Origin: a bacterium
Lineage (GTDB): Bacteria > CSSED10-310 > JAJRTK01
Direction of reading: 5' to 3'
Assembly (NCBI GenBank): GCA_024278345.1
Contig: JAJRTK010000021.1
Span: forward strand, 1-13,872
Length of the DNA stretch: 13,872 nucleotides
The translations under genes and the position numbers were made by a program. Below the pieces are notes generated by a model. The model searched no databases and had not been told where the DNA came from. It saw nothing but the letters and a program-made list of their open reading frames with translations. This document shows, in pieces, positions 23 to 13,872 of the stretch; within the stretch, counting starts at the first letter, position 1; each line of letters begins with the position of its first letter.

Positions 23-1588
23 ATGCACCGCTTTTTCAATACCGCCGGACCCTGTGACCCGAAAAAACATTACATGCTCCCGCCGGAACGCCGGATCCCC
101 GGTGTCCACCGCCTCATCGATCAAGAACTCTACTTCGTCATCCACGCGCCACGGCAGGTGGGTAAGACCACCTGTTTCCGCACCCTCGCACAAACTCTCA
201 CCGCCGAGGGAAACTACGCCGCCCTCCACGCAAGTTGTGAAATGGCCCAGGCCATGGGAAAAAACATCGAGGGAGCCGTCCAGGCCATCGTCGAAGCCCT
301 CCTGAAAGAAGCGCGGCTCCAACTTCCCAACGAACTTCGACCCCCAAAAGTCCCCCACGTGAGTTCCGCCACCCGCTTGAACCTCTTCCTGGCACAGTGG
401 GCGGAAACCTGCCCTTTGCCCGTCGTCCTCTTCCTGGACGAAATCGACGCTCTTTTGGACGAAAGCCTCGTCTCCGTCCTCCGCCAGCTCCGGGACGGCT
501 ACATGAGCAGACCCGGCGCCTTCCCACAGTCCGTCGCCCTCATCGGACTCCGCGACGTCCGCGACTACAAGGTCTCCATCCGGCCCAAAACCGCCAGCCT
601 CGGCACCTCTTCACCCTTCAACATCAAGGTCGACTCCATCACCATCCGCAACTTCACACAAGACGAAGTCGCCGAACTCTACCTCCAGCACACCGAAGAA
701 ACCGGCCAAACCTTCACCGATGAAGCCCTGGAAATGGCTTGGGACTTGACCCGCGGTCAGCCCTGGCTCGTCAACGCCCTGGCCCGCCTGGTCGTGGAAA
801 AGGATGTCGCCGACCGCCACACACCCATCACCGCCGCTCACATCGAGGCCGCCAAGGAAGCCATCATCCAGCGCCGCGACACACACCTCGACTCCCTCGT
901 CCACAAGCTCCGCGAGCCACGCGTCCGCCGCATTATCGAACCCATCCTCGCTGGCGAGCTACTCCTGGGGGAACGCCTCGACGACGACCTCGCATACGTC
1001 GAAGACTTGGGACTCATCCAACGACACGACGGCGGCTACGTGCATATCGCAAATCCCATCTACCAGGAAGTGCTTCCCCGCACCCTGGCCTATTCCATCC
1101 AAGGCAACATCCCAAATCCCACCGCATGGTATATCAAAGAGGACGGCTCCCTCGACATTGACGCTCTCCTCAGCGCATTCCTCTCCTTCTGGAAGCAGCA
1201 CGGCGAGCCTCTCATGGCCGCGCAGCCCTACCACGAGATCGCTCCACACCTCGTCCTCATGGCCTTCCTACAGCGCATCGTCAACGGCGGCGGCACCATC
1301 GACCGCGAATACGCCGTCGCCTCCGGCAGGATGGACCTCTGCATCCGCTGGCCTCACCCAAGAAGACTCCAGCTCGAAGCCCTGGAGATCAAGGTCTGGA
1401 AACCCAAAAGACCCGACCCACTCCACGAAGGCCTCCGGCAGCTCACCCGCTACCTCCAAAGACTCGAACTGGACCACGGAGTCCTCGCACTCTTCGACCG
1501 AAGACCCCAGGCCCCACCCATCGAGGAGCGCTCCAAGATGCAACCGCTGACCCACGACGGTAGGCAAATCATCCTGCTACGCCTCTAA
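23..1588 (+). CDS. AAA-like P-loop ATPase with C-terminal PD-(D/E)XK nuclease-like domain
   Basis: A 521-residue soluble protein. The N-terminus (FFNTAGPC, then HYMLPPERR) is the characteristic lead-in of a bacterial AAA-like family resembling AAA_35. A Walker A motif APRQVGKTT lies at residues 42-50 and Walker B VVLFLDEID at 134-142 (D139, E140). Residues of about 300-350 look like a winged-helix segment following the ATPase. The C-terminal part carries the spaced signature of a PD-(D/E)XK nuclease fold: D438, E455-I-K457, then Q473 in a helix with QLTRYL. It is probably an ATP-dependent nuclease or regulator, but its substrate is unknown. A close paralogue begins at 12752, so the two copies bracket the CRISPR-Cas operon as direct repeats. 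The ATG at 23 is chosen because it follows the repeat-borne AGGA and matches the paralogue's start. Whether it takes part in CRISPR immunity is not shown by the sequence. Confidence 0.85.
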   Translation: MHRFFNTAGPCDPKKHYMLPPERRIPGVHRLIDQELYFVIHAPRQVGKTTCFRTLAQTLTAEGNYAALHASCEMAQAMGKNIEGAVQAIVEALLKEARLQLPNELRPPKVPHVSSATRLNLFLAQWAETCPLPVVLFLDEIDALLDESLVSVLRQLRDGYMSRPGAFPQSVALIGLRDVRDYKVSIRPKTASLGTSSPFNIKVDSITIRNFTQDEVAELYLQHTEETGQTFTDEALEMAWDLTRGQPWLVNALARLVVEKDVADRHTPITAAHIEAAKEAIIQRRDTHLDSLVHKLREPRVRRIIEPILAGELLLGERLDDDLAYVEDLGLIQRHDGGYVHIANPIYQEVLPRTLAYSIQGNIPNPTAWYIKEDGSLDIDALLSAFLSFWKQHGEPLMAAQPYHEIAPHLVLMAFLQRIVNGGGTIDREYAVASGRMDLCIRWPHPRRLQLEALEIKVWKPKRPDPLHEGLRQLTRYLQRLELDHGVLALFDRRPQAPPIEERSKMQPLTHDGRQIILLRL

Positions 1589-2229: not shown

Positions 2230-3915
2230 ATGACGAAGATCCTTGTCGTCCTGGATATTCCGGGGATCAAGAACTATGTCTTCAGCTCCAACGTGTTGCG
2301 CGAGATCCAAGGCGCCAGCGCTTTGATCGATCATTTCAGCAGGTGGGAGACGGAGCCCCTACTGCGAGACTGGTTCGCGCAACATTGTTGTGGGAATTCC
2401 GTCAGTGAAGGCTCGGCGGCGGTGGAGGTGGAAAAGATCTTCGCCAACGCCGGCGGCGGTCAGTTCCTGGTCCGGAACTCGCCTGGCGAAGCCGAGGTGC
2501 GCGGGGCGCTTCTTCACGTGGCGCGCGAACTCCGGCACCGGTCCCAGGGCGGTCTGTTTCTGAACTTCGGGATGGCGCGGGTCTCGGATGAAGAGGACGG
2601 CTACCGCAAAGCCTTGGACCAGGCCCACCTCCGCATGCGGCGGCGCAGGAAGTCGGCGCCGAGAACCGGGGTTGCGGCCACCTGGCCCCTCGCGCGGGAA
2701 TGCGACAGCCTGGCCTGCGAACCGGCCAGTCTCCTGGTGGATATGGAGGGCGTAACCGTGGGCGAGGGAGCCCAGCTTTCCGAAAGCGATCCGGAGACTC
2801 GATGGCTCTCCATGGTGGCTTACGGGAAGTTGGAAGCCGCCCGTTGGGCGCGGGGCCGCGACGAGAAGAACCTCTGGGCCGAATTCAGGAGAGAGACGGG
2901 GAAGACTCCCGCGTACAGCCTGGAAAGCCTGGGCAAGAGTGCCCGGCGCACCGGGTATGTGGGCATCCTTTATGCCGACGGCAACAGCATGGGCAAGGTC
3001 GTGCGGAGTATCCCCGATCCGGCGAGCTACCGCGCTTTCTCCGACATCGTGGACAACGCTATCCGAAAGAGCGCCTACACTTTGATCAAGGATCTGACCC
3101 TCAAGGCCTTCCCCCTGCTCCTGGGAGGTGACGACCTGGTCATGATCGTGGCGGCGGATCGGGCCTTGGAATTTGCCGCGCGACTGCCCGGCGAGTTCCA
3201 GCGCCGCTCCAAGGACGGGATCGCCGCCTCCGGAACAGACTGGCTCAGGAAGCGTTGCCCCGACGGGTTTTCCCTCTCCATCGGCGTCGCTTTCGGTCGG
3301 GCCAGCCACCCGTTCCACCTTTTGCTCCACCAGGCAGAACAGCTCTTGAAAAGCGCCAAACGCGACGCGCTGTCGGAAGCGGAGCCCACGAAGAAGGCCA
3401 GGATCGATTTCCACCTGACCCAGAGTTCCTCCACCCGGGAACTCCAGGCTTTGCGGCGGCAGGAATGGAGGTTCACCGAAACGATTCCCACTCCGGGAGG
3501 AAGCCGGGTCATATCCTGCTCCCGGACCTTTCGGCCCTACTCCCCGGAGAGCCTCCGGGCACTATTGGACTGCACCCAGAGACTCCGGGAGGAGAAACTG
3601 CCGCGGAACAAGGCCAGCGCCATGGCCGAGGCCGCGTGGAGCGATTCCCTCCTGCAAGCCGAGATCCTGGCCCTGGAGAACATCGGGCGTCTGAAACCCA
3701 AACACAGAAAGATCCTCGTCGACCTGGAGAAAAAACTCCGATGCTCGGAAACCCCACCCTTCCATGTCATCCCGGATTCCCAGGAACGCCGGGCGTTCGC
3801 CATCGATCTCCAGGAGTGCCTCTCCCTGCAGAGTACGGCCGTGGAGGAAGACGAGGATGCCACGACCGACAAAACACCGGTCGCGGCAGAACACGGTCGT
3901 GAAGGAGGGGGATGA
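2230..3915 (+). CDS. cas10: Cas10, type III CRISPR large subunit (HD-less, GGDD cyclase intact)
   Basis: Large subunit of a type III effector complex, expected to make cyclic oligoadenylates when the complex binds target RNA. The 561-residue protein starts directly with the first palm domain (VLDIPGIKNYVFSSNVLREI near residues 7-26, with FANAGGGQF further on). There is no N-terminal HD nuclease domain, a usual trait of subtype III-D Cas10. The second palm has YADGNSMGK at 248-256, GGDD at 299-302 and a later SIGVAF segment followed by a helix with AEQLLKSAK. The treble-clef zinc site normally seen between the palms appears reduced to CDSLAC. The ATG at 2230 is preferred because AGGTG lies eight bases before it; 2224 is an in-frame alternative. 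The frame stays open upstream to 1765, but that part has no family resemblance. First gene of the operon. Its GC-rich tail ends in EHGREGGG, which encodes a Shine-Dalgarno-like run. Confidence 0.93.
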   Translation: MTKILVVLDIPGIKNYVFSSNVLREIQGASALIDHFSRWETEPLLRDWFAQHCCGNSVSEGSAAVEVEKIFANAGGGQFLVRNSPGEAEVRGALLHVARELRHRSQGGLFLNFGMARVSDEEDGYRKALDQAHLRMRRRRKSAPRTGVAATWPLARECDSLACEPASLLVDMEGVTVGEGAQLSESDPETRWLSMVAYGKLEAARWARGRDEKNLWAEFRRETGKTPAYSLESLGKSARRTGYVGILYADGNSMGKVVRSIPDPASYRAFSDIVDNAIRKSAYTLIKDLTLKAFPLLLGGDDLVMIVAADRALEFAARLPGEFQRRSKDGIAASGTDWLRKRCPDGFSLSIGVAFGRASHPFHLLLHQAEQLLKSAKRDALSEAEPTKKARIDFHLTQSSSTRELQALRRQEWRFTETIPTPGGSRVISCSRTFRPYSPESLRALLDCTQRLREEKLPRNKASAMAEAAWSDSLLQAEILALENIGRLKPKHRKILVDLEKKLRCSETPPFHVIPDSQERRAFAIDLQECLSLQSTAVEEDEDATTDKTPVAAEHGREGGG

Positions 3916-4064
3916 TCCAACGACGGGATGACACACCAATCTCCGGGCCTCCGGCGCCGAGCCTCGAAAACCACTCCGCGAAGCGCGACCGGTCTCCTTC
4001 ACAAGAACTCACCATGGGAAACGAGCCATGCCTGACCTCGAACTTTCCTATCGACTGCAACTGA
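3912..4064 (+). CDS. Possible 50-residue ORF overlapping the cas10 stop
   Basis: An ATG at 3912 overlaps the cas10 stop as ATGA and lies three bases after a strong AAGGAGG. The frame encodes 50 residues rich in polar residues and proline, then ends at 4062-4064, 36 bases inside the following RAMP gene in another frame. It has no recognised domain. It may only couple translation between the two genes, and the spacing from the ribosome-binding site is short, so confidence is low. Confidence 0.2.
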   Translation: MIQRRDDTPISGPPAPSLENHSAKRDRSPSQELTMGNEPCLTSNFPIDCN

Positions 4065-4999
4065 TGGGCCGATGGCACTTCGGAAGCGGCCTGGAACGCG
4101 GCACCCTGGACCGGGCGATCCTTCGGGATGGCCGAGGCGTGCCGTACATTCCTGGTTCTCACCTCAAGGGCCGGCTCCGGGAGGCGGTCGAGTGGATCTG
4201 CCGCATCCTGAAGCTTCCGGTCTTCGAGCCTCACTCGCTGGACGACGAGAGCGCCCGCAGGTTCGCCCTGCCCCAAGCCTCCGGCAACCCCGTGGAGCGC
4301 CTCTTCGGGGCCCGCGACCGGGAGGGCTCCCTGATCGTCGGCCACGCCCACCCAGACGGAACCCGCGCCCAAAAGCTTCTGGCGTCTCCAGACGCTCTCC
4401 TGCCTCTCCGGCGCGTATCCATGGACCGCGGCCTGGGCCGCGCCCGGGACCGGCGGCTCTTTTACACCGAATACGGCTACGGCTTGCCTTCTCAGCCTGC
4501 GGGTGCCGCCGTCACGGAGGACACCGCCACCGCGCCCTCCGTCACCTTCCGCGGCCGCATCCTGGCCCGCCACGTGCCACAACGCCTCCCCACCATCGGC
4601 GAGCCCCTCTTCTCCGGCTGGGAGCCCGGCTGGCCGCTGGATTGGTCCATCCTCGCGGCCTCTCTCCTGGCCCTCGAACGGGTGGGCGGCGACGTGAGCA
4701 CCGGCGCCGGTGCCTGCGAAATCGACCTCGAAAACACGCGATGGCGCCCCGAAAAAGGCCGGGAATGGAAGAGCCTGGACAATCCTCATCGACTCCTGAA
4801 GCCCCTGGAGTCCCTGGGTTGCTTCCCCCTCTTCCAGATGGCCGAACCGGGTTCCCACGGCGCCGAGTCCCGTCTCCCAAGCTTCCTCCAATTCGCCAAG
4901 GACGACCTAGGCTGCTCCCTGGAATCCATCGACCAACAAGCGGAATGGAGAGACGACTGGAGCATGGCCCTGGAATACTTTGATGAGACATCCGCATAG
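4028..4999 (+). CDS. Cas7-type RAMP protein (Csm3-like, type III-D)
   Basis: A 323-residue backbone subunit of the RNA-targeting complex. RAMP features: an N-terminal beta strand leading to GRWHFGSG, then D28 in GTLDRAIL, then YIPGSHLKGRLRE (P42-GSHLKG). D28 aligns with the aspartate that cleaves target RNA in Csm3, so this subunit may be catalytic. A glycine-rich RAMP loop GGDVSTGAG occurs at 220-228. The last 90 residues are a C-terminal extension not needed for the core fold. The start is weakly supported by GGGAAACGAG upstream of ATG 4028. It lies between cas10 and csx10, the order seen in many III-D loci. The gap to cas10 is 112 bases, and the next gene follows after 10 bases. Confidence 0.85.
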   Translation: MPDLELSYRLQLMGRWHFGSGLERGTLDRAILRDGRGVPYIPGSHLKGRLREAVEWICRILKLPVFEPHSLDDESARRFALPQASGNPVERLFGARDREGSLIVGHAHPDGTRAQKLLASPDALLPLRRVSMDRGLGRARDRRLFYTEYGYGLPSQPAGAAVTEDTATAPSVTFRGRILARHVPQRLPTIGEPLFSGWEPGWPLDWSILAASLLALERVGGDVSTGAGACEIDLENTRWRPEKGREWKSLDNPHRLLKPLESLGCFPLFQMAEPGSHGAESRLPSFLQFAKDDLGCSLESIDQQAEWRDDWSMALEYFDETSA

Positions 5000-5009
5000 G
5001 AGCCCAACC

Positions 5010-6368
5010 ATGACCCTGCAGCCCTTGGAACTGAAAGCGACACTCCTGGAACCGGTGGCCATCCGGGCCAACCGCCAGTCCACGCGCTCGGAAGGCCTGG
5101 CCTGGATTCCCGGCTCCACCCTCCTGGGTGCCCTGGCCCACGCCTACCTCCGCTGGGCCGGCGCCCCGGACGACGACGGATTCCAAATCCTGTTCCAGGA
5201 CGAGAACCACTGCCGCTGGGGCTCCCTCCGGACCGGGATCTACCAGCCACCGGCCACCGCCGCAAGCTGCAAGCGGTTCCCCGGCATCTCCGGCGCCACC
5301 ACCTCGAAAAGCGGCGCCACGCCACCCGCCGACTCCGAGGCCCACGGCATCCACGACCTGCTCCTGGCCGAGCTCCTGGCCCTCCGGAAACCGGAAGACG
5401 CCCCCACAGCGATTCTCTGCCGCTGCGGAGAACCCCTCAAGCCCTATCGATCCCCGCTCCTCACCACCTCTTCAAAAAAAGGCGGCCTCCAGTTCGCAGC
5501 ACCAGCACAACCCGTCCGACGAACACGCCTCCACGTGGGCATCCTCAGGACCACTTCCACCGCGGCCAAGCAGATCCTCTTCTCCGAGGAAACCCTCGAC
5601 TGCTGGATCAAAACCGGGGCCGAACCCGGCATCGACGCCTACGAACCCACCATCCTCTCCGGAACCATCGAACTCTCCGACCATGCCAGGAAGACCCTGA
5701 AAAGCCTCCTGGACCTCCTCGACTCCCGCGTCGATGTCGGCGCCTCCCGCTCCCGAGGCCTGGGATCCCTCGAACTGAAGATGGGCCAACCACTCCCAAC
5801 TCCCTCCACCACCCAACTCGACCGGTTCAGCAATCAGGCGGCACACCACCTGTCCGGAACCGATTCCATCTTCACCCTCACCTTTCCCGAGGGCGCCCTC
5901 TTCCTCGACCCCCTCCTACGCTTCACCAACGACCCCGCCGCCGCCATCCCCTGGCTGCCACCCATGCCCAGGGAAGACCAAAAGCCCGAGACCGTCGATG
6001 GCATCACGCCACTCTACGGAAACGCCGAGTTCACCCGCCTCCGAGGATGGCACGGAGCACATGGACTCCCAAGGTCCGACGACCTGGCCCTGGAACCAGG
6101 AGCCATCTTCGCCTACGAAGTCCACCAAGACCAATGGCCCAACGTCCAGGAGCGACTCCTCCAACTCGCCGCCACCGGCGCAGGCCTTCGACGCAACGAA
6201 GGATTGGGCCGCGTCCGGATCTCCGACCCGTTCCACCTCAAATTCGCCTACCAACCCACCGCCCAAACGCCTGGAAGCCACCCCCCCAACGCACCCACCA
6301 ACCACTTAAAAACAAAGCGTTCCACCAAAAATACCCGAAAAAAGAAGAAAAAGAAACGCAAGCGATGA
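5010..6368 (+). CDS. csx10: Csx10, two-domain Cas5-like RAMP of type III-D
   Basis: A 452-residue protein expected to cap the crRNA 5' end in the complex, as Cas5/Cmr3-type subunits do. Two RAMP domains are visible. The first has IPGSTLLGAL at 33-42 and a glycine-rich loop VGASRSRGLGS at 243-253. The second ends in a glycine-rich loop around GLRRNEGLGRV (391-401). A reduced cysteine motif CRCGEPLKPY starts at 137; many family members have a fuller zinc-binding pair here. Between them is the VRRTRLHVGILRTT-type strand typical of Csx10. The C-terminus is a very basic tail after residue 430 (KKKKKKRKR), which could bind nucleic acid or be a slippage product of the A-rich DNA at 6330-6365. ATG 5010 follows AGGAG at 4998-5002. 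An upstream in-frame TTG at 4980 would overlap the previous gene. Confidence 0.82.
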   Translation: MTLQPLELKATLLEPVAIRANRQSTRSEGLAWIPGSTLLGALAHAYLRWAGAPDDDGFQILFQDENHCRWGSLRTGIYQPPATAASCKRFPGISGATTSKSGATPPADSEAHGIHDLLLAELLALRKPEDAPTAILCRCGEPLKPYRSPLLTTSSKKGGLQFAAPAQPVRRTRLHVGILRTTSTAAKQILFSEETLDCWIKTGAEPGIDAYEPTILSGTIELSDHARKTLKSLLDLLDSRVDVGASRSRGLGSLELKMGQPLPTPSTTQLDRFSNQAAHHLSGTDSIFTLTFPEGALFLDPLLRFTNDPAAAIPWLPPMPREDQKPETVDGITPLYGNAEFTRLRGWHGAHGLPRSDDLALEPGAIFAYEVHQDQWPNVQERLLQLAATGAGLRRNEGLGRVRISDPFHLKFAYQPTAQTPGSHPPNAPTNHLKTKRSTKNTRKKKKKKRKR

Positions 6369-6414: not shown

Positions 6415-6867
6415 ATGTCCCTGACACGCGACAACAAGACCATCATCGAACAATGGCTCATCAGTCCCGAGGCGCCCGACGCAAAACGACTGGGCAGGGA
6501 AACCGCCAACGCACTGCATCGCAATGCCACTGATGGCGAAGACCAGAAGGCCACCCGGATCATGACCCAAATCCGAGGCATCCAGAACCTAGTCTACTCC
6601 ACCAACCGCTTCTCCGACATCGAGGAAAGCATCTGGAGCCGCATGGGCCGGGACACCAAGAAAACCAGCATCTGGTGGGAAAAAGTCGCCACCGGGGCGC
6701 GAGAACCCGAACTCGGCCATCGCGTCCTGACGGCCCTGACCAAAATCCGCGACTTCATCGAAAACGAAAACGAACTCAAAAAAAGAAAACTCGAAGCCCG
6801 CATCTACGCCGCAAGGCTCTGGATCCGCCGCTTCGTCGCCAGCTACCTCTTCCACCGCAACTCGTGA
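6415..6867 (+). CDS. Csm2/Cas11-like small subunit
   Basis: A 150-residue, mostly helical, charged protein. The segment RIMTQIRGIQNLVYS at residues 48-62 resembles the TxxQIRxxxN signature of Csm2. The C-terminal helix LEARIYAARLWIRRFVASY fits the end of that family, where a conserved aromatic/basic helix packs on the complex. In type III complexes the small subunit lines the crRNA-target duplex opposite the Cas7 backbone. ATG 6415 has a good AAGGAG at 6401-6406. It follows csx10 by 46 bases. Length and gene position match III-D small subunits. Sequence divergence is high in this family, so the call rests on one motif plus context. Confidence 0.65.
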   Translation: MSLTRDNKTIIEQWLISPEAPDAKRLGRETANALHRNATDGEDQKATRIMTQIRGIQNLVYSTNRFSDIEESIWSRMGRDTKKTSIWWEKVATGAREPELGHRVLTALTKIRDFIENENELKKRKLEARIYAARLWIRRFVASYLFHRNS

Positions 6868-6911
6868 CCCGGCACCAGTCCACGAGGTTTCCTCCCAACG
6901 GCTTCTGGCTT

Positions 6912-6962
6912 CCAGGTGGAGGTCCGCTCCCATCGGGCGCCATCCGGCGCACCGCTGCTCGC
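6912..6962 (-). repeat. 51-bp dispersed hairpin repeat, left inverted copy
   Basis: The reverse complement of this segment matches 7650-7700 with four mismatches in 51, and 32 bases match without a break. The core forms a GCGCC/GGCGC hairpin. Together the two copies bracket the unrecognised gene at 7034-7531 as inverted repeats. I see no transposase or target-site duplication, so this may be a REP-like family rather than an insertion sequence. Confidence 0.85.
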
Positions 6963-7033
6963 ACGGCCACACCCGCAGGCGACAACCCGGAACCGCAAAA
7001 GGAGACAACCCCAAAAAAGAACGGAGAACCGCC

Positions 7034-7531
7034 ATGCCAGCCCCAACCGCCACCAAAGAAACTGCAGACCTCTGGTTCATCGAAGAAAAAATCGTGCCCC
7101 TGGCCAAAAAACAGGCCAACCAGGTGGTCCAACATAATCTCCTTCCAAAGGACCACTATAGCCATATGCTCGAAACCGTGGCCCGCATCGGCCGCCAACA
7201 GCCGGAAAAGCTCGAAAAACTCGCCAAAAACCAAAAACAACGAGCAGAAAAACGAATGTCTAATACCAATAAAAGAGAAGGCAACAAGATCATATTTTGG
7301 GAGCTTGTCCTGGAAGCCGTCCAAAGTCGGACAGCCAGCAATCCCCAAAAAAACCCGGGGCTGTATGATCTGGCCAAGGAGCGGATCGGGGATCCTCCAT
7401 CCCCCAACCCGAGCAAGAGCGAAAAGAAGGAACACGGCAAGAAAATCACAGAACTCCTCCACAAGCTCATTCCCGTTTGGAGCCGGAGCTTCTGCATCCG
7501 GATCCGCTACAAGATGGAGGCGCAGCGATGA
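7034..7531 (+). CDS. Unrecognised basic 165-residue protein inside the cas operon
   Basis: No family recognised. The protein is lysine-, arginine- and glutamine-rich, probably alpha-helical, with no signal peptide, membrane segment or cysteine motif. Residues about 52-78 have heptad-like charged repeats (PEKLEKLAKNQKQRAEKR). A middle stretch rich in Pro, Ser and Lys (about 120-140) looks like a flexible linker before a last helix ending in IRIRYKM. ATG 7034 follows ACGGAG at 7021-7026. The central part, around 7255-7310, is visibly richer in A and T than its neighbours. It lies between the small subunit and the two csm3-like genes, so a structural role such as a second small-subunit-like component or an accessory RNA-binding factor is possible. 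The flanking inverted repeats instead raise the possibility of insertion. The function is unknown. Confidence 0.6.
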   Translation: MPAPTATKETADLWFIEEKIVPLAKKQANQVVQHNLLPKDHYSHMLETVARIGRQQPEKLEKLAKNQKQRAEKRMSNTNKREGNKIIFWELVLEAVQSRTASNPQKNPGLYDLAKERIGDPPSPNPSKSEKKEHGKKITELLHKLIPVWSRSFCIRIRYKMEAQR

Positions 7532-7571: not shown

Positions 7572-7654
7572 CCATGGGTGTCCCGGCGGTGGCCATGGGC
7601 GAGGTGGGGGGAGGGCGGTGCCATGGAGGGTGCCCGGCGGTGGCCATGGGCGAG
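7572..7654 (+). repeat. Direct repeat pair with CCATGG cores
   Basis: A 22-base identical segment (CCCGGCGGTGGCCATGGGCG followed by AG) occurs at 7582-7603 and 7633-7654, a 51-base offset. Each copy is preceded by a CCATGG about ten bases upstream. The second copy runs into the 51-bp hairpin repeat at 7650. The G-rich intervening sequence has no coding character. Confidence 0.8.
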
Positions 7655-7700
7655 CAGCGGTGCGCCGGATGGCGCCCGATGCGAGCGGAACGCAACCTGG
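7650..7700 (+). repeat. 51-bp dispersed hairpin repeat, right copy
   Basis: This copy is inverted relative to 6912-6962 (47 of 51 positions identical) and related to the degenerate copy at 2061-2097. The core GCGCC-GGAT-GGCGC at 7662-7675 forms a perfect 5-bp stem, followed by the conserved GAGCGGAACGCA. It occupies much of the 300-base gap between the 165-residue gene and the first csm3-like gene. Confidence 0.85.
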
Positions 7701-7808
7701 AGCACGTGGAACTGGATCGACGATGGGGAGCGGGTTCTTGGGGAAGAGCTTTGCTGGAAGGGGAGAGATGTCGAGATTGACCTTGAGCGAGGGCCGTGGG
7801 CGCTGTGA
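7680..7808 (+). pseudogene. Possible 3' remnant of a lost gene
   Basis: The frame ending at TGA 7806-7808 reads as a plausible protein C-terminus (WIDDGERVLGEEL, then DVEIDLERGPWAL). It stops 30 bases before the next gene, the spacing expected of an operon neighbour. Upstream it runs into the hairpin repeat, and no start or ribosome-binding site is visible. It could be the tail of a gene truncated when the repeats arrived. Chance open frame in GC-rich DNA is the alternative. Confidence 0.2.
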
Positions 7809-7838
7809 GGCGGGATCCGGCCAAGAAAGGAGATGACG

Positions 7839-8717
7839 ATGTGGGGACCGCACTACGAGTCGCTGCCGGTCCGCTGGCGCGTTGAGCTGGAGATCGAGTT
7901 TTTGACGGCCTGGCGCGTCGGATCGGGCGAGGAAGGGGAGACGACGGACCTGGGGATTCTGCTGGACCCGGACGGGAGGCCGGTTCTTCCTGGATCCTCC
8001 ATCAAGGGGGTGTTCCGGAGCTGCTGCGAGCGGTTGGCGGGGAGCCTGGGGATGTCGGCTTGCCTGCTGGACCGTGGGCTGTCGGGGGTCGATTGTTGGA
8101 ATGGGTTCGCGCACGAGGAGTTCCGAAGTCACCGGGAGTCCGTATCCAAGGGGAAGCCGGGAGCGGTGGAGTTTCGGCGGCGCCTGGAGAGGAAAACCTG
8201 TCATGTGTGCCGTTTTTTCGGGACGACGATGATGGGAGGCCGGGTGGCGTTGTCCGACGGTCGGTTGGTGGCGGAGAGCTGGGCGGAGGTGGTGGAGCGT
8301 CGGGACGGCGTGGTCATCGACCGGGACGAGGGGACAGCCCGGGACGGCCTGAAATACGACTACGATGTGGCTCCTGCGGGGATGACGTTCGCTTCGAGCC
8401 TGGAGTGGATTGACTATCCGAATGCGAAGGATCCGGAGACTGCGGCGCAGACCCGGCGGGAGCGGGCGATGCTGGCGGCCGCGCTCTTCCAGTGGCTTGA
8501 CGGCTTCGCCCTGGGCGGCTTCACGAGCCGCGGCCTGGGCCGGGCGGAGCTGAGGGTGAAGAGCGTGGAGACGGTGGACCTGGGCAACGCGGAGCAGGTA
8601 CGGGAATTCCTGGTCCGGCGCCAATGGGAAAAGGTGGAGGACTGGGAAGAGCGATGGCAGGACTGGATCGAAACGCAGTTCGACGCGGCCCTGGCGGGGG
8701 CTTCCACCACGGCGTGA
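7839..8717 (+). CDS. csm3: Csm3-like Cas7 RAMP (first of pair)
   Basis: A 292-residue crRNA-binding backbone protein with likely target-RNA cleavage. The N-terminal RAMP signature is WRVGSGEE, then D37 in TTDLGILLD, then VLPGSSIKGVFRS (P51-GSSIKG). D37 matches the catalytic aspartate of Csm3. A CHVC pair (C121, C124) followed by RFFG marks the thumb/zinc region. VVIDRDEGTARDGLKYDY is the usual Cas7 segment contacting the crRNA-target kink. The glycine-rich loop GGFTSRGLGRAEL starts near 226. The AAGGAG at 7827-7832 touches the ATG at 7833 but is six bases from the ATG at 7839, so 7839 is chosen. The next gene is a second Csm3-like protein, 52 bases downstream. Confidence 0.88.
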   Translation: MWGPHYESLPVRWRVELEIEFLTAWRVGSGEEGETTDLGILLDPDGRPVLPGSSIKGVFRSCCERLAGSLGMSACLLDRGLSGVDCWNGFAHEEFRSHRESVSKGKPGAVEFRRRLERKTCHVCRFFGTTMMGGRVALSDGRLVAESWAEVVERRDGVVIDRDEGTARDGLKYDYDVAPAGMTFASSLEWIDYPNAKDPETAAQTRRERAMLAAALFQWLDGFALGGFTSRGLGRAELRVKSVETVDLGNAEQVREFLVRRQWEKVEDWEERWQDWIETQFDAALAGASTTA

Positions 8718-8769: not shown

Positions 8770-9732
8770 ATGTTCAAACAATGGTTCTGCCGCTGTGAAG
8801 CCCGTCTCCGGATCGAGCTGGAGGGGCCGCTGCTGGTGAAATCGGGCATCGCCAGCCTGGACGGGCCGGACGCGGGGCCGGTTCTCACGCTCCACGGCGG
8901 GGGCGACGCCATGCCGTTCATCCCCGGGTCCTCTCTCAAGGGCGTCGTGCGCTCGCACCTGGAGCGGATTGCCCGGGGATTGCGGCCAAACAGCGTCTGT
9001 ATTCCTTATTTGAAGGATTCGACGAAGAAGTTGCCCGATGGATCACAAGATTGCGTGGGCTGCGGTTTCCGGTTGCAGGGGCTGGACCTGAAGCCTGGCG
9101 AGGCCTACCGTTCGAGCTGCGCGGCTTGCCGCCTGTTCGGCTCGACGCGCCACAGGGGCAGGATGGGATTCGGCGACGCCTACTGGAGGACCGGGACGCT
9201 GAAACCGGCCATGGAAGTCCGGGATCACGTGGCCATCGACCGGTTCACCGGGGGCGGCGCTGGTGGCCTGAAGTTCGACGTGGAAGTCGTGGCCAGGGGA
9301 ACGTTCGAGACCCGGGTCGTTTTGGAAAACTTCGAGCTTTGGCAGCTCTCGGCCCTGGTCATCGCGCTGGTGGATTTCGAGGACGGCCTGCTTTCCATCG
9401 GCTCCGGTACGTCCCGCGGCCTGGGCCAGGTGCGCGGCGTCATCGAAGATCTCTGGATCGACCTGGTGAAGGCGAACAAGGAGCTAGTGGGCGTCGCCCA
9501 GTTGGCCCCTGAACAGAAGAAGCAGTATGGCTGGTCCGGGTGGGCGGCCAATCCGTCGATCCAGCTACCCGACAACCCGGAGCGCCGCGGCCTGCGTTAC
9601 CGCTACCGGCTGGACGCGGAGTGGCGCGAAGAGGCCTTTGGACAACTGGTTCCCGGATTCCGGAATTTCCTGGCCGAGCGGAATTGGCTCGACGATATCC
9701 AGACTCTTGTTCGCGAAAGGACGCGCTCATGA
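8770..9732 (+). CDS. csm3: Csm3-like Cas7 RAMP (second of pair)
   Basis: A 320-residue Cas7-type subunit. D34 in DGPDAGPVL aligns with the Csm3 cleavage residue, followed by MPFIPGSSLKGVVRS. Two CxxC pairs at C95/C98 and C117/C120 should form a zinc site, with the second leading into RLFGSTRHRG. HVAIDRFTGGGAGGLKFD is the characteristic crRNA-contact segment. A glycine-rich loop GSGTSRGLGQV starts near 211. Compared with the preceding paralogue it has a full zinc site and a longer C-terminal extension (about residues 235-320). Strong ribosome-binding site AAAGGAG sits six bases before ATG 8770. The stop codon overlaps the next start as ATGA (9729-9732), indicating translational coupling. Several distinct Cas7 proteins in one operon is normal for III-D. 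Confidence 0.9.
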   Translation: MFKQWFCRCEARLRIELEGPLLVKSGIASLDGPDAGPVLTLHGGGDAMPFIPGSSLKGVVRSHLERIARGLRPNSVCIPYLKDSTKKLPDGSQDCVGCGFRLQGLDLKPGEAYRSSCAACRLFGSTRHRGRMGFGDAYWRTGTLKPAMEVRDHVAIDRFTGGGAGGLKFDVEVVARGTFETRVVLENFELWQLSALVIALVDFEDGLLSIGSGTSRGLGQVRGVIEDLWIDLVKANKELVGVAQLAPEQKKQYGWSGWAANPSIQLPDNPERRGLRYRYRLDAEWREEAFGQLVPGFRNFLAERNWLDDIQTLVRERTRS

Positions 9733-10301
9733 CTCCCGGAACTCAATGGAGCCTGGCAGCGGGCGATCTGGAGTTCACCGTTCTGGCGCAATTCGCCGAA
9801 AGCATGGCTGCCGGGCTGGCGAAGGCCGACGGGAAGGCGCCCTTCCTCTGGACAGCGCACCCGGCCGCCTGGCGGCTGGAGCCGTGGGCTCCCGGGCTCC
9901 TGGAGGAGACGACCCTGGAAGGCCGGATCTTCGGGCCATCGGGGGAACTCCGGTGGCGCCGCCTGGAAGTGCGAAGGGGCGCCTGCATCCGGGTGGTCTA
10001 CCTGGGCCAGGTGGTCTTGCCTGGCGATGCGCCGTTGAAGGACCAATCCGCCAGGCTGGGCGAGCTGGAACGCCAGCCGGCCAGGCGAGCTGTCCTCTGG
10101 GGCAAGCTCCTTCCCGGTGCCCCGGATGGCCCGGTCTGGATCGAACAGAAGATCCCCCACCGCCTCCGGTATGGCTTCGTCGAGCCTGAGGCGGAGCGGA
10201 TCGCGTTGCTGCGGGAGGCCTGGGAGGCTCCCGACGGGACAGTCCAGTTCTGGCGTTTCGTCGACCTGGTTCCCTGGCGACCGCAAGAAAAGGAGGCCTG
10301 A
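9729..10301 (+). CDS. csx19: Csx19-like type III-D CRISPR-associated protein
   Basis: A 190-residue protein whose ATG overlaps the upstream stop by ATGA. Features recalled from the Csx19 (TIGR03984) family are a central AVLWGKL at about 121-127, EQKIPHRLRYGF starting at 139 and a terminal aromatic-rich QFWRFVDLVPW. The N-terminal half has an LEGRIFGPSGELRWRRLEV strand pair. Csx19 proteins occur with III-D gene sets, but their biochemical role is not established as far as I know. The position among RAMP genes, tight coupling and length all fit. The assignment comes from remembered family patterns rather than a profile search. A divergent small accessory protein of another family remains possible. 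Confidence 0.62.
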   Translation: MTPGTQWSLAAGDLEFTVLAQFAESMAAGLAKADGKAPFLWTAHPAAWRLEPWAPGLLEETTLEGRIFGPSGELRWRRLEVRRGACIRVVYLGQVVLPGDAPLKDQSARLGELERQPARRAVLWGKLLPGAPDGPVWIEQKIPHRLRYGFVEPEAERIALLREAWEAPDGTVQFWRFVDLVPWRPQEKEA

Positions 10302-10303
10302 TC

Positions 10304-11389
10304 ATGCCCGTGGGAGAAGAATTCTGGAACCCGTACCGCTTGATCCCCATGCCGAAGGGACAGCCTCCTCGAAAGGAGCCCCAATACCACCACCGGCCCC
10401 GGGGAAGTTCGGGAACCCTCTGGTGCCGCCTGGAGGCCAAGACCGCGCTCCTGGTGTCGAAGCAGGAAGGGACAGTCAACACCTTCTGGAAATCCAAGAG
10501 AACCAACAAACCGACGATACCCGGCACGTCCCTCATGGGGATGCTCCGGAGCGTCGTGGAGATCGTGGGCCACGGCTGTGCCATCACGTCGAGGAGTGAC
10601 GCTTGCCAGAGCATCGGCGGCCTCTGCGTCGCCTGCCGCATGTTCGGCTGGGTGGGCCAGGGCCAAAGGGATGCCCTCTACCGTGGCCACGTCAATATCG
10701 GCGACGGGGAGATGGATTCGACTCCCACGCCGGAGGCACGCTGGCAAAAGGCCGACGTCTACCTGTCCAGGCCCCGGCCGACTCACGCCTCCTTCTATCC
10801 CGGGCCGAAATCCGCCTACCGGAAGCTCTACCACCACCAGCCGCATTGCAAACAGGACCCGGCGCCTCCCCTTCGGGGAGTTAGGGCCAACACCAGCCTC
10901 AAGCCGGCTCCGGCGGGAACCATCTTCACCTTCCAGGTACGGTTCCGGGATCTGCCCGACAAGCTTCTAGGGCTGCTCCTCTACGCCCTGGTGTTGGAAG
11001 AGGAATGCCAGGCCACCCTCACCGGATGGGACGAAGAGATCGGACAGAAGCGCAAGTTCGAAATCAGGGGTCCCCTCTGTCACAAGCTGGGCCAGGGCAA
11101 GCCCTTGGGCCTGGGCTCCTGCAAGGTTGAAATCGAGAAGGCCCGCTTCTCCGCCGGCCTGAGCCGGTATGCCCCGGAAGGCCTGGCCAAGGCCAGGAAA
11201 ATATTGGAAGGCGATGAGTTGGACAACTGGATTCGGGGCAAAACCGAACCCTATCGAGGGCTGGAGACCAAGACGATGCAAGCGTTCCGGAAGATGACCA
11301 TCTTCGATGCTGACGACCCAAGGAAGTTCCGCTATCCATCGCTGAACTGGTTTAGCGCCAATCCAAATAGAAAGCTGAAGCCGCTTTGA
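10304..11389 (+). CDS. TIGR03986-like CRISPR-associated RAMP protein
   Basis: A 361-residue RAMP. It begins with NPYRLIPMP, similar to the PYxFxPL opening of the TIGR03986 family. It then has TIPGTSLMGMLRSVVEIV (P73-GTSLMG), a cysteine set C92, C101, C108, C111 around GGLCVACRMFG, and a late glycine-rich GKPLGLGSCKVEI starting near 265, a hallmark of that family. Where Csm3 has its catalytic aspartate this protein reads QEGTVNTFW, so it probably does not cleave target RNA. A terminal, Csm5-like position at the crRNA 3' end is a reasonable inference. ATG 10304 follows a strong AAAGGAGG and lies two bases after the csx19 stop. It is shorter than many TIGR03986 members. Confidence 0.78.
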   Translation: MPVGEEFWNPYRLIPMPKGQPPRKEPQYHHRPRGSSGTLWCRLEAKTALLVSKQEGTVNTFWKSKRTNKPTIPGTSLMGMLRSVVEIVGHGCAITSRSDACQSIGGLCVACRMFGWVGQGQRDALYRGHVNIGDGEMDSTPTPEARWQKADVYLSRPRPTHASFYPGPKSAYRKLYHHQPHCKQDPAPPLRGVRANTSLKPAPAGTIFTFQVRFRDLPDKLLGLLLYALVLEEECQATLTGWDEEIGQKRKFEIRGPLCHKLGQGKPLGLGSCKVEIEKARFSAGLSRYAPEGLAKARKILEGDELDNWIRGKTEPYRGLETKTMQAFRKMTIFDADDPRKFRYPSLNWFSANPNRKLKPL

Positions 11390-11429: not shown

Positions 11430-11705
11430 ATGCCAAAGGCAAGACACTTCATCGAACTCCTCTCAGCCAACCGGGACGACTGGCCCCCGGCACTCCAAAA
11501 GCAGGCCGACGCCATCACCTCCCTCGCCCGCGTCCACGCTGCCTGGGACCGACTCGACTACCGGCATGCCCAATCGCTCCTGGAGGAGGAAGGCGACCAG
11601 TTCGACTGGATACCCCAAGGCCGGTGGAGCCGAATGAAACCAAATAGGGAAGCCCGGCGATGGGTCAACGAACTCGCCGCCCAACCCCCTACGACAGCGG
11701 TGTGA
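11430..11705 (+). pseudogene. N-terminal fragment of split, CARF-less Cas02710-like effector
   Basis: A 91-residue frame that resembles the linker region between sensor and nuclease in Cas02710 (TIGR02710) proteins (LARVHAAWDRLDYRHAQSLLEEEGD). The roughly 150-residue N-terminal CARF sensor expected before it is absent, because the preceding RAMP gene ends only 40 bases upstream. The best ribosome-binding site (AAGGAG at 11408-11413) is spaced for an ATG at 11420 in a different, meaningless frame. The ATG at 11430 is in the protein-like frame but 16 bases from that site. The frame ends as VNELAAQPPTTAV-stop because of a 74-nt insertion. Its TGA overlaps the ATG of the downstream fragment (TGATG), so reinitiation is conceivable. 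Confidence 0.55.
11662..11700 (+). repeat. 39-bp direct repeat, copy A
   Basis: Identical over 39 bases to 11736-11774, with 35 bases between them. Both copies encode VNELAAQPPTTA, but they are 74 bases apart, so the duplication changes the reading frame and splits the effector gene. Recombination between the copies would delete exactly 74 bases and rejoin the two frames. Confidence 0.95.
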
Positions 11706-12322
11706 TGGAAGAGCTCGTCCCTGCGATCACGGCGCGGGTCAACGAACTCGCCGCCCAACCCCCTACGACAGCGGAATCTGGTGGGGTGGCCGCCAGGGCG
11801 GAACACCTGCGAAAACTCGGGGTCGCCCTCTTGGTCAACGGCCGACAACGACTCCGGGAGGCACACCTGGAGGATGCCCTCCCCCGGGCCTACCGCATCC
11901 TGGAACTCGTGGGGCAGATGCGCCTCTTCGAAAGGGGCTACGACGCTGCAAGGCTGCCGCCGGACGACGAACATGTGCAACGGGCCTTGAATCTCTTGGA
12001 ACAAAAGAAGAAGGAAAGCTTCTTTTGGGACGAAACCAACTCCTGCTACCTGGCACCGCGCATGCCCGCCACCTACCTCCTGACGTGCCTTGGCGGTCCC
12101 ATGGGGAAGCGTCTTAGCCAGGAAGCGGACAAGGGTGCTCTCCCGCCGCGCCTCAGGAACCGGAGCATCCTCATCCACGGGTTCCAGGCTTCCGCCACCT
12201 CGAGGACCGACGCCGAAAAGCTCTTCCACGGAATGGGCGATCTCTTGGCCGAGGCATTGGGCGATGATTGGACCCGCCTGGAACCCATCGCTCAATCCCT
12301 GGAAGATCCCGGCGCTGTCTAA
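11705..12322 (+). CDS. HEPN ribonuclease domain of Cas02710-like CRISPR effector
   Basis: A 205-residue frame holding a HEPN-type nuclease domain similar to the C-terminal part of Cas02710/Csm6-like effectors. LEDALPRAYRILELVGQMRL (about residues 57-76) corresponds to the conserved YDDAxARxYRxxExxxQ helix. RNRSILIHGF at 151-160 is the RN-x-SIL-x-HG hallmark containing the R-x4-H ribonuclease motif (R153, H158). In intact relatives an N-terminal CARF domain binds cyclic oligoadenylate and activates the HEPN RNase. Here no CARF is present. The start at 11705 overlaps the stop of the upstream fragment as TGATG; 11660 is an in-frame alternative. Removing the 74-nt insertion would give a continuous 272-residue protein. 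The catalytic motif is intact, so the domain may still be active if translated. Confidence 0.68.
   Translation: MEELVPAITARVNELAAQPPTTAESGGVAARAEHLRKLGVALLVNGRQRLREAHLEDALPRAYRILELVGQMRLFERGYDAARLPPDDEHVQRALNLLEQKKKESFFWDETNSCYLAPRMPATYLLTCLGGPMGKRLSQEADKGALPPRLRNRSILIHGFQASATSRTDAEKLFHGMGDLLAEALGDDWTRLEPIAQSLEDPGAV
11736..11774 (+). repeat. 39-bp direct repeat, copy B
   Basis: Perfect second copy of 11662-11700. It reads into the remainder of the effector gene in the downstream frame (VNELAAQPPTTAESGG). The bases beyond each copy differ on both sides, so this is not a simple 74-bp tandem duplication. Confidence 0.95.
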
Positions 12323-12482
12323 ACATCCAACCCGATGACACAGACCGCGGGTTCCAGCCTGTTTCCCAAGAAACGGGGTTCCGCATCCTGCTGGAAATCC
12401 GTGGCTCGCCCACTGGGCGCGCCAGGTCGGCGATCAGCGCAAGGTCATCCTGGAGTAAGGCCGATAGAGCTGAGGAAGAGTG

Positions 12483-12491
12483 TGGTATATT
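12483..12491 (+). promoter_or_regulatory. Extended -10 promoter-like element
   Basis: TGGTATATT fits the extended -10 pattern TGnTATAAT with one mismatch in the hexamer. No good -35 box is seen at the usual distance. It lies just upstream of a cluster of hairpins and would start transcription near 12498. Confidence 0.3.
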
Positions 12492-12497
12492 GTTGGC

Positions 12498-12642
12498 CCC
12501 GTCCATTCTGGCGGCCGCTCCATGCCGCCTGCGCTAGCTCTTGTCGGCGTTCAGCCCTGGAACCGGTTGCGCGATCTCGCTGGGGCACGAGCGGCGATTC
12601 CATCGACTCTGGAATCCATCAACAACCCCGAAGGGGGTTTTT
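12498..12642 (+). ncRNA. Candidate structured small RNA ending at a terminator
   Basis: Between the extended -10 element and the terminator are several hairpins: GGCGGC/GCCGCC at 12510-12529, a small CTCG/CGAG stem near 12577-12592, GATTCCA/TGGAATC at 12596-12616, and the terminator stem. The segment does not match any RNA family I recognise (not tRNA, 4.5S or tmRNA). It could equally be the processed end of the operon transcript. Confidence 0.2.
12624..12642 (+). terminator. Rho-independent terminator
   Basis: AACCCC (12624-12629), loop GAAG and GGGGTT (12634-12639) form a 6-bp stem followed by more T residues. It is the first convincing terminator after the cas operon and lies upstream of the second ATPase copy, so it should separate the two transcription units. 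Confidence 0.65.
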
Positions 12643-12720
12643 CGCTGTTGCGTTCCCGTCAGATCGCACGCTTCGCTCGATACGCGCCCCTCCACGGGAA
12701 AACCGCCGGATACGGCGACC

Positions 12721-12748
12721 AGCCCAAAACCCAGAACCCGGAACCCCC
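12721..12748 (+). repeat. Degenerate heptanucleotide repeats before second ATPase copy
   Basis: Four 7-nt units (AGCCCAA, AACCCAG, AACCCGG, AACCCCC) end three bases before the ATG at 12752. They belong to the family seen at 2-22 and 1589-1700 but are more diverged, and the AGGA ribosome-binding element is reduced to CGGAA. Confidence 0.75.
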
Positions 12749-12751
12749 AAA

Positions 12752-13872
12752 ATGCCCCGCTTTTTCAACACCGCTGGACCCTGCAATCCGCAGGATCACT
12801 ACATGCTCCCACCGGAACGCCGGATCCCCGGCGTCCGGCAACTCATCGACCAGAAGCTCTACTTTGTCATCCACGCTCCCAGGCAGGTGGGCAAGACCAC
12901 CTGTTTCCGCACCCTGGCACGCACTCTCACCGCCGAAGGAAACTACGCCGCCCTCCACGCAAGTTGCGAAATGGCCCAGGCCATGGGGCAAAATATCGAG
13001 GGAGCCATCCAGGCCGTTGTGGAGGCGCTTCTCGAAGAAGCGCGACTGCAGTTCCCCACCGAACTGCGACCCAAGAAGATCCCCGACGTGAGTTCCGCCA
13101 CCCGTCTCAACCTCTTCCTGGCGCAATGGGCGGAGAGTTGCCCCAGGCCCGTCGTCCTCTTCCTGGACGAAATTGATGCTCTCCTGGACCAGAGCCTCGT
13201 CTCCGTCCTCCGCCAGCTCCGGGACGGCTACATGCGCAGACCCGGTGCCTTCCCACAGTCCGTCGCCCTCATCGGACTCCGCGACGTCCGCGACTACAAG
13301 GTCAGCATCCGGCCAAAAACCGCCAGCCTCGGCACCTCCTCTCCCTTCAACATCAAAGTCGATTCCATCACCATCCGCAACTTCACCCAAGGCGAAGTCG
13401 CCGAGCTCTACCTCCAGCACACCGAAGAAACCGGCCAAACCTTCACCGAACAGGCCCTGGAAACCGCCTGGCAACTCACCCGGGGCCAGCCATGGCTCGT
13501 CAACGCCCTGGCCCGCCAAACCGTGGAAAAAGATGTCACCGACCGCAACAACCCCATCACCGCCTCGCACCTGCAAGCCGCCAAGGAAGCCATTATCCAG
13601 CGCCGCGACACACACCTCGACTCCCTCGTCGATAAACTCCGCGAGCCACGCGTCCGACGCATTATCGAACCCATCCTCGCCGGCGAGCTACTCCTGGGGG
13701 AACGCCTAGACGACGACCTCGCATACGTCGAGGATCTCGGGCTCATCGCCGCTGATCCTCGCGGAGAGGCTCGCATCGCCAATCCCATCTACCGGGAAGT
13801 CATCCCCAGGGCCCTGGCATACGGCGCCCAGAGAACCATCCCCCACCAACCAGCCTGGTACATCAAAAAAGA
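12752..13872 (+). CDS. AAA-like ATPase/PD-(D/E)XK family protein, second copy (truncated by window end)
   Basis: The frame runs open from ATG 12752 to the window end, giving at least 373 residues of a close paralogue of the protein at 23-1588. The lead-in FFNTAGPC and HYMLPPERR, Walker A APRQVGKTT (42-50) and Walker B VVLFLDEID occupy the same residue positions. Identity is very high through about residue 330, also at DNA level. It then drops around residues 343-370 (GLIAADPRGEARIANPIYRE against GLIQRHDGGYVHIANPIYQE). The C-terminal nuclease-like domain lies outside the window, so its catalytic residues cannot be checked. The start is set by alignment with the first copy. A terminator lies upstream, so it is probably transcribed separately from the cas genes. 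Confidence 0.88.
   Translation, partial: MPRFFNTAGPCNPQDHYMLPPERRIPGVRQLIDQKLYFVIHAPRQVGKTTCFRTLARTLTAEGNYAALHASCEMAQAMGQNIEGAIQAVVEALLEEARLQFPTELRPKKIPDVSSATRLNLFLAQWAESCPRPVVLFLDEIDALLDQSLVSVLRQLRDGYMRRPGAFPQSVALIGLRDVRDYKVSIRPKTASLGTSSPFNIKVDSITIRNFTQGEVAELYLQHTEETGQTFTEQALETAWQLTRGQPWLVNALARQTVEKDVTDRNNPITASHLQAAKEAIIQRRDTHLDSLVDKLREPRVRRIIEPILAGELLLGERLDDDLAYVEDLGLIAADPRGEARIANPIYREVIPRALAYGAQRTIPHQPAWYIKK

Follow-up and report, generated by a model that had tools for sequence, protein, structure and literature searches.

The gene X, a small open reading frame in an operon of an RNA-targeting type III-D CRISPR system, is likely to encode a second subunit of Cas11 type, so far unannotated, in a widespread III-D branch with two Cas11 proteins, which gives a likely identity to a formerly unrecognised gene. 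The window, i.e. the whole stretch of 13,872 nucleotides analysed, is located on contig C326 of an assembly of 6.06 Mb. In our opinion, it is highly probable that X encodes an additional Cas11 (small subunit), strongly diverged and paralogous to the one encoded adjacently upstream. The product of X would join the effector complex as a subunit of its belly.

The operon is arranged in the order Cas10, Cas7a, Csx10, small subunit, X, Cas7b, Cas7c, Csx19 and Cas7d (Table 1). The presence of csx10, as well as of csx19 and four cas7 genes together with cas10, places it in subtype III-D. The true start of Csx19 is probably situated further inside the open frame, near the end of Cas7c. The first small subunit of the window does not match a Csm2 model by itself and is identified through its family.

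Table 1. Features of the III-D operon of the window and the support for their assignment.
Feature	Position	Strand	Basis
Cas10 with GGDD motif	2230..3915	+	PADLOC Cas10 3.7e-64; GGDD in sequence
Cas7a (III-D)	4028..4999	+	PDLC02110 Cas7_IIId 3.7e-13
Csx10 (Cas5 of III-D)	4980..6368	+	TIGR02674 1.4e-25, below its curated cut-off; PADLOC Cas5_IIId 6.8e-28
First small subunit (Cas11a / Csm2-type, III-D)	6415..6867	+	family matches PADLOC Csm2 models
Ribosome-binding site GGAG of X	7023..7026	+	sequence
X, proposed cas11b (second Cas11-type small subunit)	7034..7531	+	orthologues, slot, profile homology
Cas7b (Csx7/Csm3-like)	7833..8717	+	TIGR02581 4.2e-29
Cas7c (Csx7/Csm3-like)	8770..9732	+	TIGR02581 3.1e-32
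Csx19, open frame	9540..10301	+	TIGR03984 6.1e-06; PADLOC Csx19 3.1e-06
Cas7d (TIGR03986 family)	10304..11389	+	TIGR03986 6.4e-41

X encodes 165 amino acids, starts with ATG and ends with TGA, and the stretch AACGGAGAACCGCCATG places GGAG 7 bases 5' of the start codon. These data agree with the preliminary description, made from the letters of the DNA, which had reported a 165-residue frame with its own ribosome-binding site between the small subunit and the paired csm3-like genes of a III-D operon. The same description had called the protein basic and helical. Basicity holds for X itself (predicted pI 9.9, charge about +13) but is not a conserved trait of its family, in which the charges of orthologues range from about -7 to +13. 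Helical character is predicted by an all-helix AlphaFold2 single-sequence model with six helices, whose pLDDT of 48.9 makes it usable for this character only; the corresponding prediction for Cas11a reached 44.3. X alone gave no match above chance in Pfam, NCBIfam and PADLOC, and these collections hold no model for its family. Searches of genome contigs, made twice, and of viral contigs for related loci found no relatives, and a match to C437 at E 0.5 was dismissed as chance.

The genome contains a second III-D operon, which is divided between the contigs C201 (Cas10, Cas7a, Csx10 and small subunit) and C161 (X, Cas7b and Cas7c). Its X stands at the same place and is 47% identical to that of the window over 162 aligned residues, which makes X the fastest-evolving of the seven operon genes compared between the two operons; the first small subunits share 57% identity, and the other genes 58-72%. 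Over the 162 codons, the differences at the three codon positions number 63/54/93, a pattern by which X is recognised as a coding gene. In G003, a genome of another family of the same phylum, X was found at the same operon place with E 9.4e-11 to the window protein, and the two sequences are clear orthologues. X is a real gene, beyond a chance open reading frame, because it has homologues in the same slot of the second operon and of G003 and shows this pattern of codon differences.

An insertion sequence, whose terminal inverted repeats CATGGCAATCGCAT are 14 bp long, interrupts X of the second operon, and the assembly breaks there too (L041 = G000:C201 5417-5520; L008 = G000:C161 1-130). Contig C201 ends within X with the terminal repeat, C161 starts with its inverted copy, and both junctions bear AGAGATCGTGC, an 11-base target duplication. 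The remaining genes of this operon seen on the two contigs are open. X may be dispensable in the second operon or supplied by the window operon, or the second operon may be on its way out. Besides these two operons, the genome has a third locus of III-D type (L042, G000:C71, 131-1817), where a Cas11 domain of the single type (E about 2.8e-18) seems to form a fusion with Csx10. G003 also has a fused operon of III-D type (L043, G003:C195, 7048-15141) in addition to its two-Cas11 operon.

Loci bearing Csx10 or Cas7c were gathered from searches over about 1,300 genomes in all, and their open reading frames were mapped. Two small frames between csx10 and the paired cas7 genes were found in 16 III-D loci from at least five phyla: the window, the sister operon rejoined from its two contigs, G003, G134, G038, G020, nine loci in the phylum of G208, and L092 from the latter phylum, which is cut by a contig end and has X visible. 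Allowing for such cuts, all of them have the gene order Cas10-Cas7a-Csx10-Cas11a-X-Cas7b-Cas7c-Csx19-Cas7d, so that X, like Cas11, lies amid the genes for core subunits within the effector operon. In nine other loci, a single small frame stands between csx10 and cas7b, and in at least ten the genes are fused in the manner of III-Dv, with no room for X.

Proteins of the first slot match PADLOC Csm2 models in 9 of 12 cases (best 5.5e-15 and 2.5e-15), and for a single-slot protein the match to the small-subunit model of III-D is at 4.6e-11; by these matches, both groups are assigned to the Cas11 small subunits. By hhalign, the second-slot (A4) and first-slot (A5) profiles align collinearly in 135 columns with a probability of 97.6 and an E-value of 3e-12; leaving out the window clade gave E 1.1e-12. 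An HMM trained on first-slot and single-slot proteins, with no X, recovered most second-slot proteins, including those of G038 (1.7e-8, the best), G020 (5.6e-8) and L095 (4.5e-7), with further matches at 1.2e-6, 4.3e-5 and weaker. Only one of the 13 X proteins reaches a Csm2 model, namely that of G020, residues 8-105 of 132 of which match the III-D model PDLC01474 at E 0.0018. Both families have the motif SQ..GL, followed about 20 residues later by Q..R, and their C-terminal helix reads REFI..L.AE.. or RxFIR..VA.YE. Judging from profiles and motifs, the X family is homologous to the Csm2/Cas11-type small subunits of III-D systems. An early profile comparison of three X with two Cas11a sequences only gave no signal; intermediates were required. 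A search of the X and Cas11a alignments against profiles of solved structures returned chance matches only, with no Cas11 for either family.

Within the X family, divergence is greatest in the window clade. Compared directly with Cas11 alone, its X proteins gave no significant score (E 0.029 to 0.33), and therefore their link to Cas11 rests on intermediates and position. With G134 and the window clade left out of training, an HMM of the X family found X of G134 at 6.8e-5 (leave-one-out) and X of G003 at 0.0013. The three window-clade sequences compared with a profile made from the remaining Cas11 and X proteins scored 35.8 (probability 77, E 2.1e-5), against maxima of 14.7 with 99 column-shuffled targets and 14.3 with 60 query shuffles, 159 controls in all. 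Homology to Cas11 is seen directly for the X family, and for the window clade through the intermediates and this combined profile.

On the Cas10 tree, the two-Cas11 loci cluster together (2 changes vs a shuffled mean of 11.3), and the window operons are sister to the two-Cas11 locus of G134 with support 99/99, a placement that further supports the link of window-clade X. The free tree of small subunits puts window-clade X beside window-clade Cas11a (92/60), on a long branch, as would be expected if this X were a Cas11 paralogue produced in this phylum by duplication of its own Cas11a, sharing the slot by chance. We regard such a separate origin as rather unlikely, since the likelihood rises slightly, by 2.97 (p-AU 0.61), when all X proteins are held together in the tree, window-clade X occupies the same slot as X of other phyla, and the sister locus in G134 carries an X that is recognised by the family HMM. 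The topology test does not speak against a single origin of X.

If X is a second small subunit, it would join the effector complex as a helical subunit of the belly. It would line the inner side of the Cas7 filament, with Cas11a and the helical C-terminal domain of Cas10 as its neighbours. From its own fixed position, X would touch the crRNA-target duplex and the Cas7 active sites, and the belly would consist of two different subunits rather than repeats of one Cas11. Four different cas7 genes predict a non-repeating backbone, and a heterotypic belly with X fits this; a complex of such a kind, with X in its own position, would be the simplest reading of four cas7 and two cas11 genes. It is from this arrangement that we infer the role of X as a second belly subunit of fixed position. 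The preliminary description had offered a second small-subunit-like component or an RNA-binding accessory; the former proposal gains support from the homology to Cas11 through the orthologous family and from the common slot in the 16 loci, and the latter has found no support of its own. That description had also named two outcomes that would speak against its proposal, a lack of orthologues in any other III-D locus and homologues found only in unrelated mobile contexts; what was found is the reverse, orthologues in at least five phyla in the same operon slot.

The rapid evolution of X, together with its interruption in a second operon whose other visible genes are open, could also point to a Cas11-derived accessory acting outside the complex, such as a factor for its assembly, or a protein that competes with Cas11a and so tunes the activation of Cas10. 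We consider this improbable, because the position of X among core subunit genes is conserved across phyla, and all other genes from cas10 to cas7d encode known complex subunits, including Csx19, which has been demonstrated to be one of the core subunits of III-Dv (PMC11026444).

A dispersed repeat with a core near TCCGCTCCCATCGGGCGCCATCCGGC has copies in the window at 6911-6962, 7650-7701 and 2066-2101, and the second operon has a diverged copy too, located between its small subunit and X. The first two copies form 52-nt inverted arms, 92% complementary, on both sides of X, but the repeat occurs in at least 40 copies across the genome, so that X as a repeat-flanked mobile cassette was ruled out. 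A passenger gene, an option kept in the preliminary description, here one unrelated to CRISPR function and inserted between these arms, is hardly credible, given that the slot is maintained in genomes of other phyla, which contradicts it, and that the X family is homologous to Cas11.

The nearest known relatives of the X family are the Csm2/Cas11 proteins of III-D (PADLOC PDLC01474, PDLC01011), likewise small proteins, helical as predicted for X, encoded after csx10 in the effector operon, which have in common with X the SQ..GL and C-terminal helix motifs and a collinear alignment; X differs from them as an extra, separately encoded paralogue next to a normal Cas11. SsoCsm, the III-D complex of Saccharolobus solfataricus, is also a multi-gene effector with several different Cas7 subunits, but it has a single cas11 gene, whose product is present in five copies (PMC9945777), whereas operons of the window type have two different cas11-like genes. 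The III-Dv complex of Synechocystis contains one copy of each subunit; its Cas11 domain and the C-terminus of Cas10 follow the Cas7 filament, and at the cleavage sites there are arginines from the Cas7-Cas5-Cas11 subunit (PMC11026444). The order Cas10, Cas7, Cas5, Cas11, two Cas7, Csx19, Cas7 and the absence of repeated subunits resemble the window operon, but the III-Dv subunits are fused and include a single Cas11 domain (PMC11026444); the fused-type loci that we examined showed no counterpart of X. In III-G, Csx26 is another diverged small protein in a proposed Cas11-related role (PMC12669027); it was set apart by its description, being proposed to replace Cas11, while X is encoded beside a normal one.

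In open-access main texts, we found no paper on III-D systems with two different Cas11 genes. Whereas the III-D complexes described thus far possess a single Cas11 gene or domain, two different Cas11 proteins are probably present in III-D effectors of several phyla. Such operons bear on the question of how multi-subunit type III complexes became fused and single-protein effectors; these systems offer a direct test of position-specific roles of small subunits, and X would be the missing subunit for rebuilding such a complex. We suggest, tentatively and with more doubt than certainty, that the widespread multi-gene III-D branch has a belly of Cas11a and Cas11b, one of each in fixed positions, with a dedicated protein for each crRNA position. 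If so, the length of crRNA would be fixed, every Cas7 cleavage site, like the Cas10 switch, would have a small-subunit partner of its own, and these complexes would represent a stage one step before the III-Dv and III-E fusions.

A Csx1/Csm6-type effector 3' of Cas7d (window 11430-12322) looks decayed. It consists of a linker-like part (11430-11705) and a HEPN part (11660-12322) in differing frames, a 39-nt piece is duplicated at 11662 and 11736, and no CARF domain was found for it within the window; the orthologue in L010 is of full length (442 aa). The whole CRISPR operon is flanked by two AAA-type ATPase genes in direct orientation (window 23-1588 and 12335-13872). The first 300 nt of these copies, 12,729 bases apart, are 85% identical, and the pair may be a mark of a duplication or a mobile unit. 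A short tandem array of AGAACCCAGAACCAGGAACCC-like units is located at 1587-1712, 3' of the first ATPase gene.
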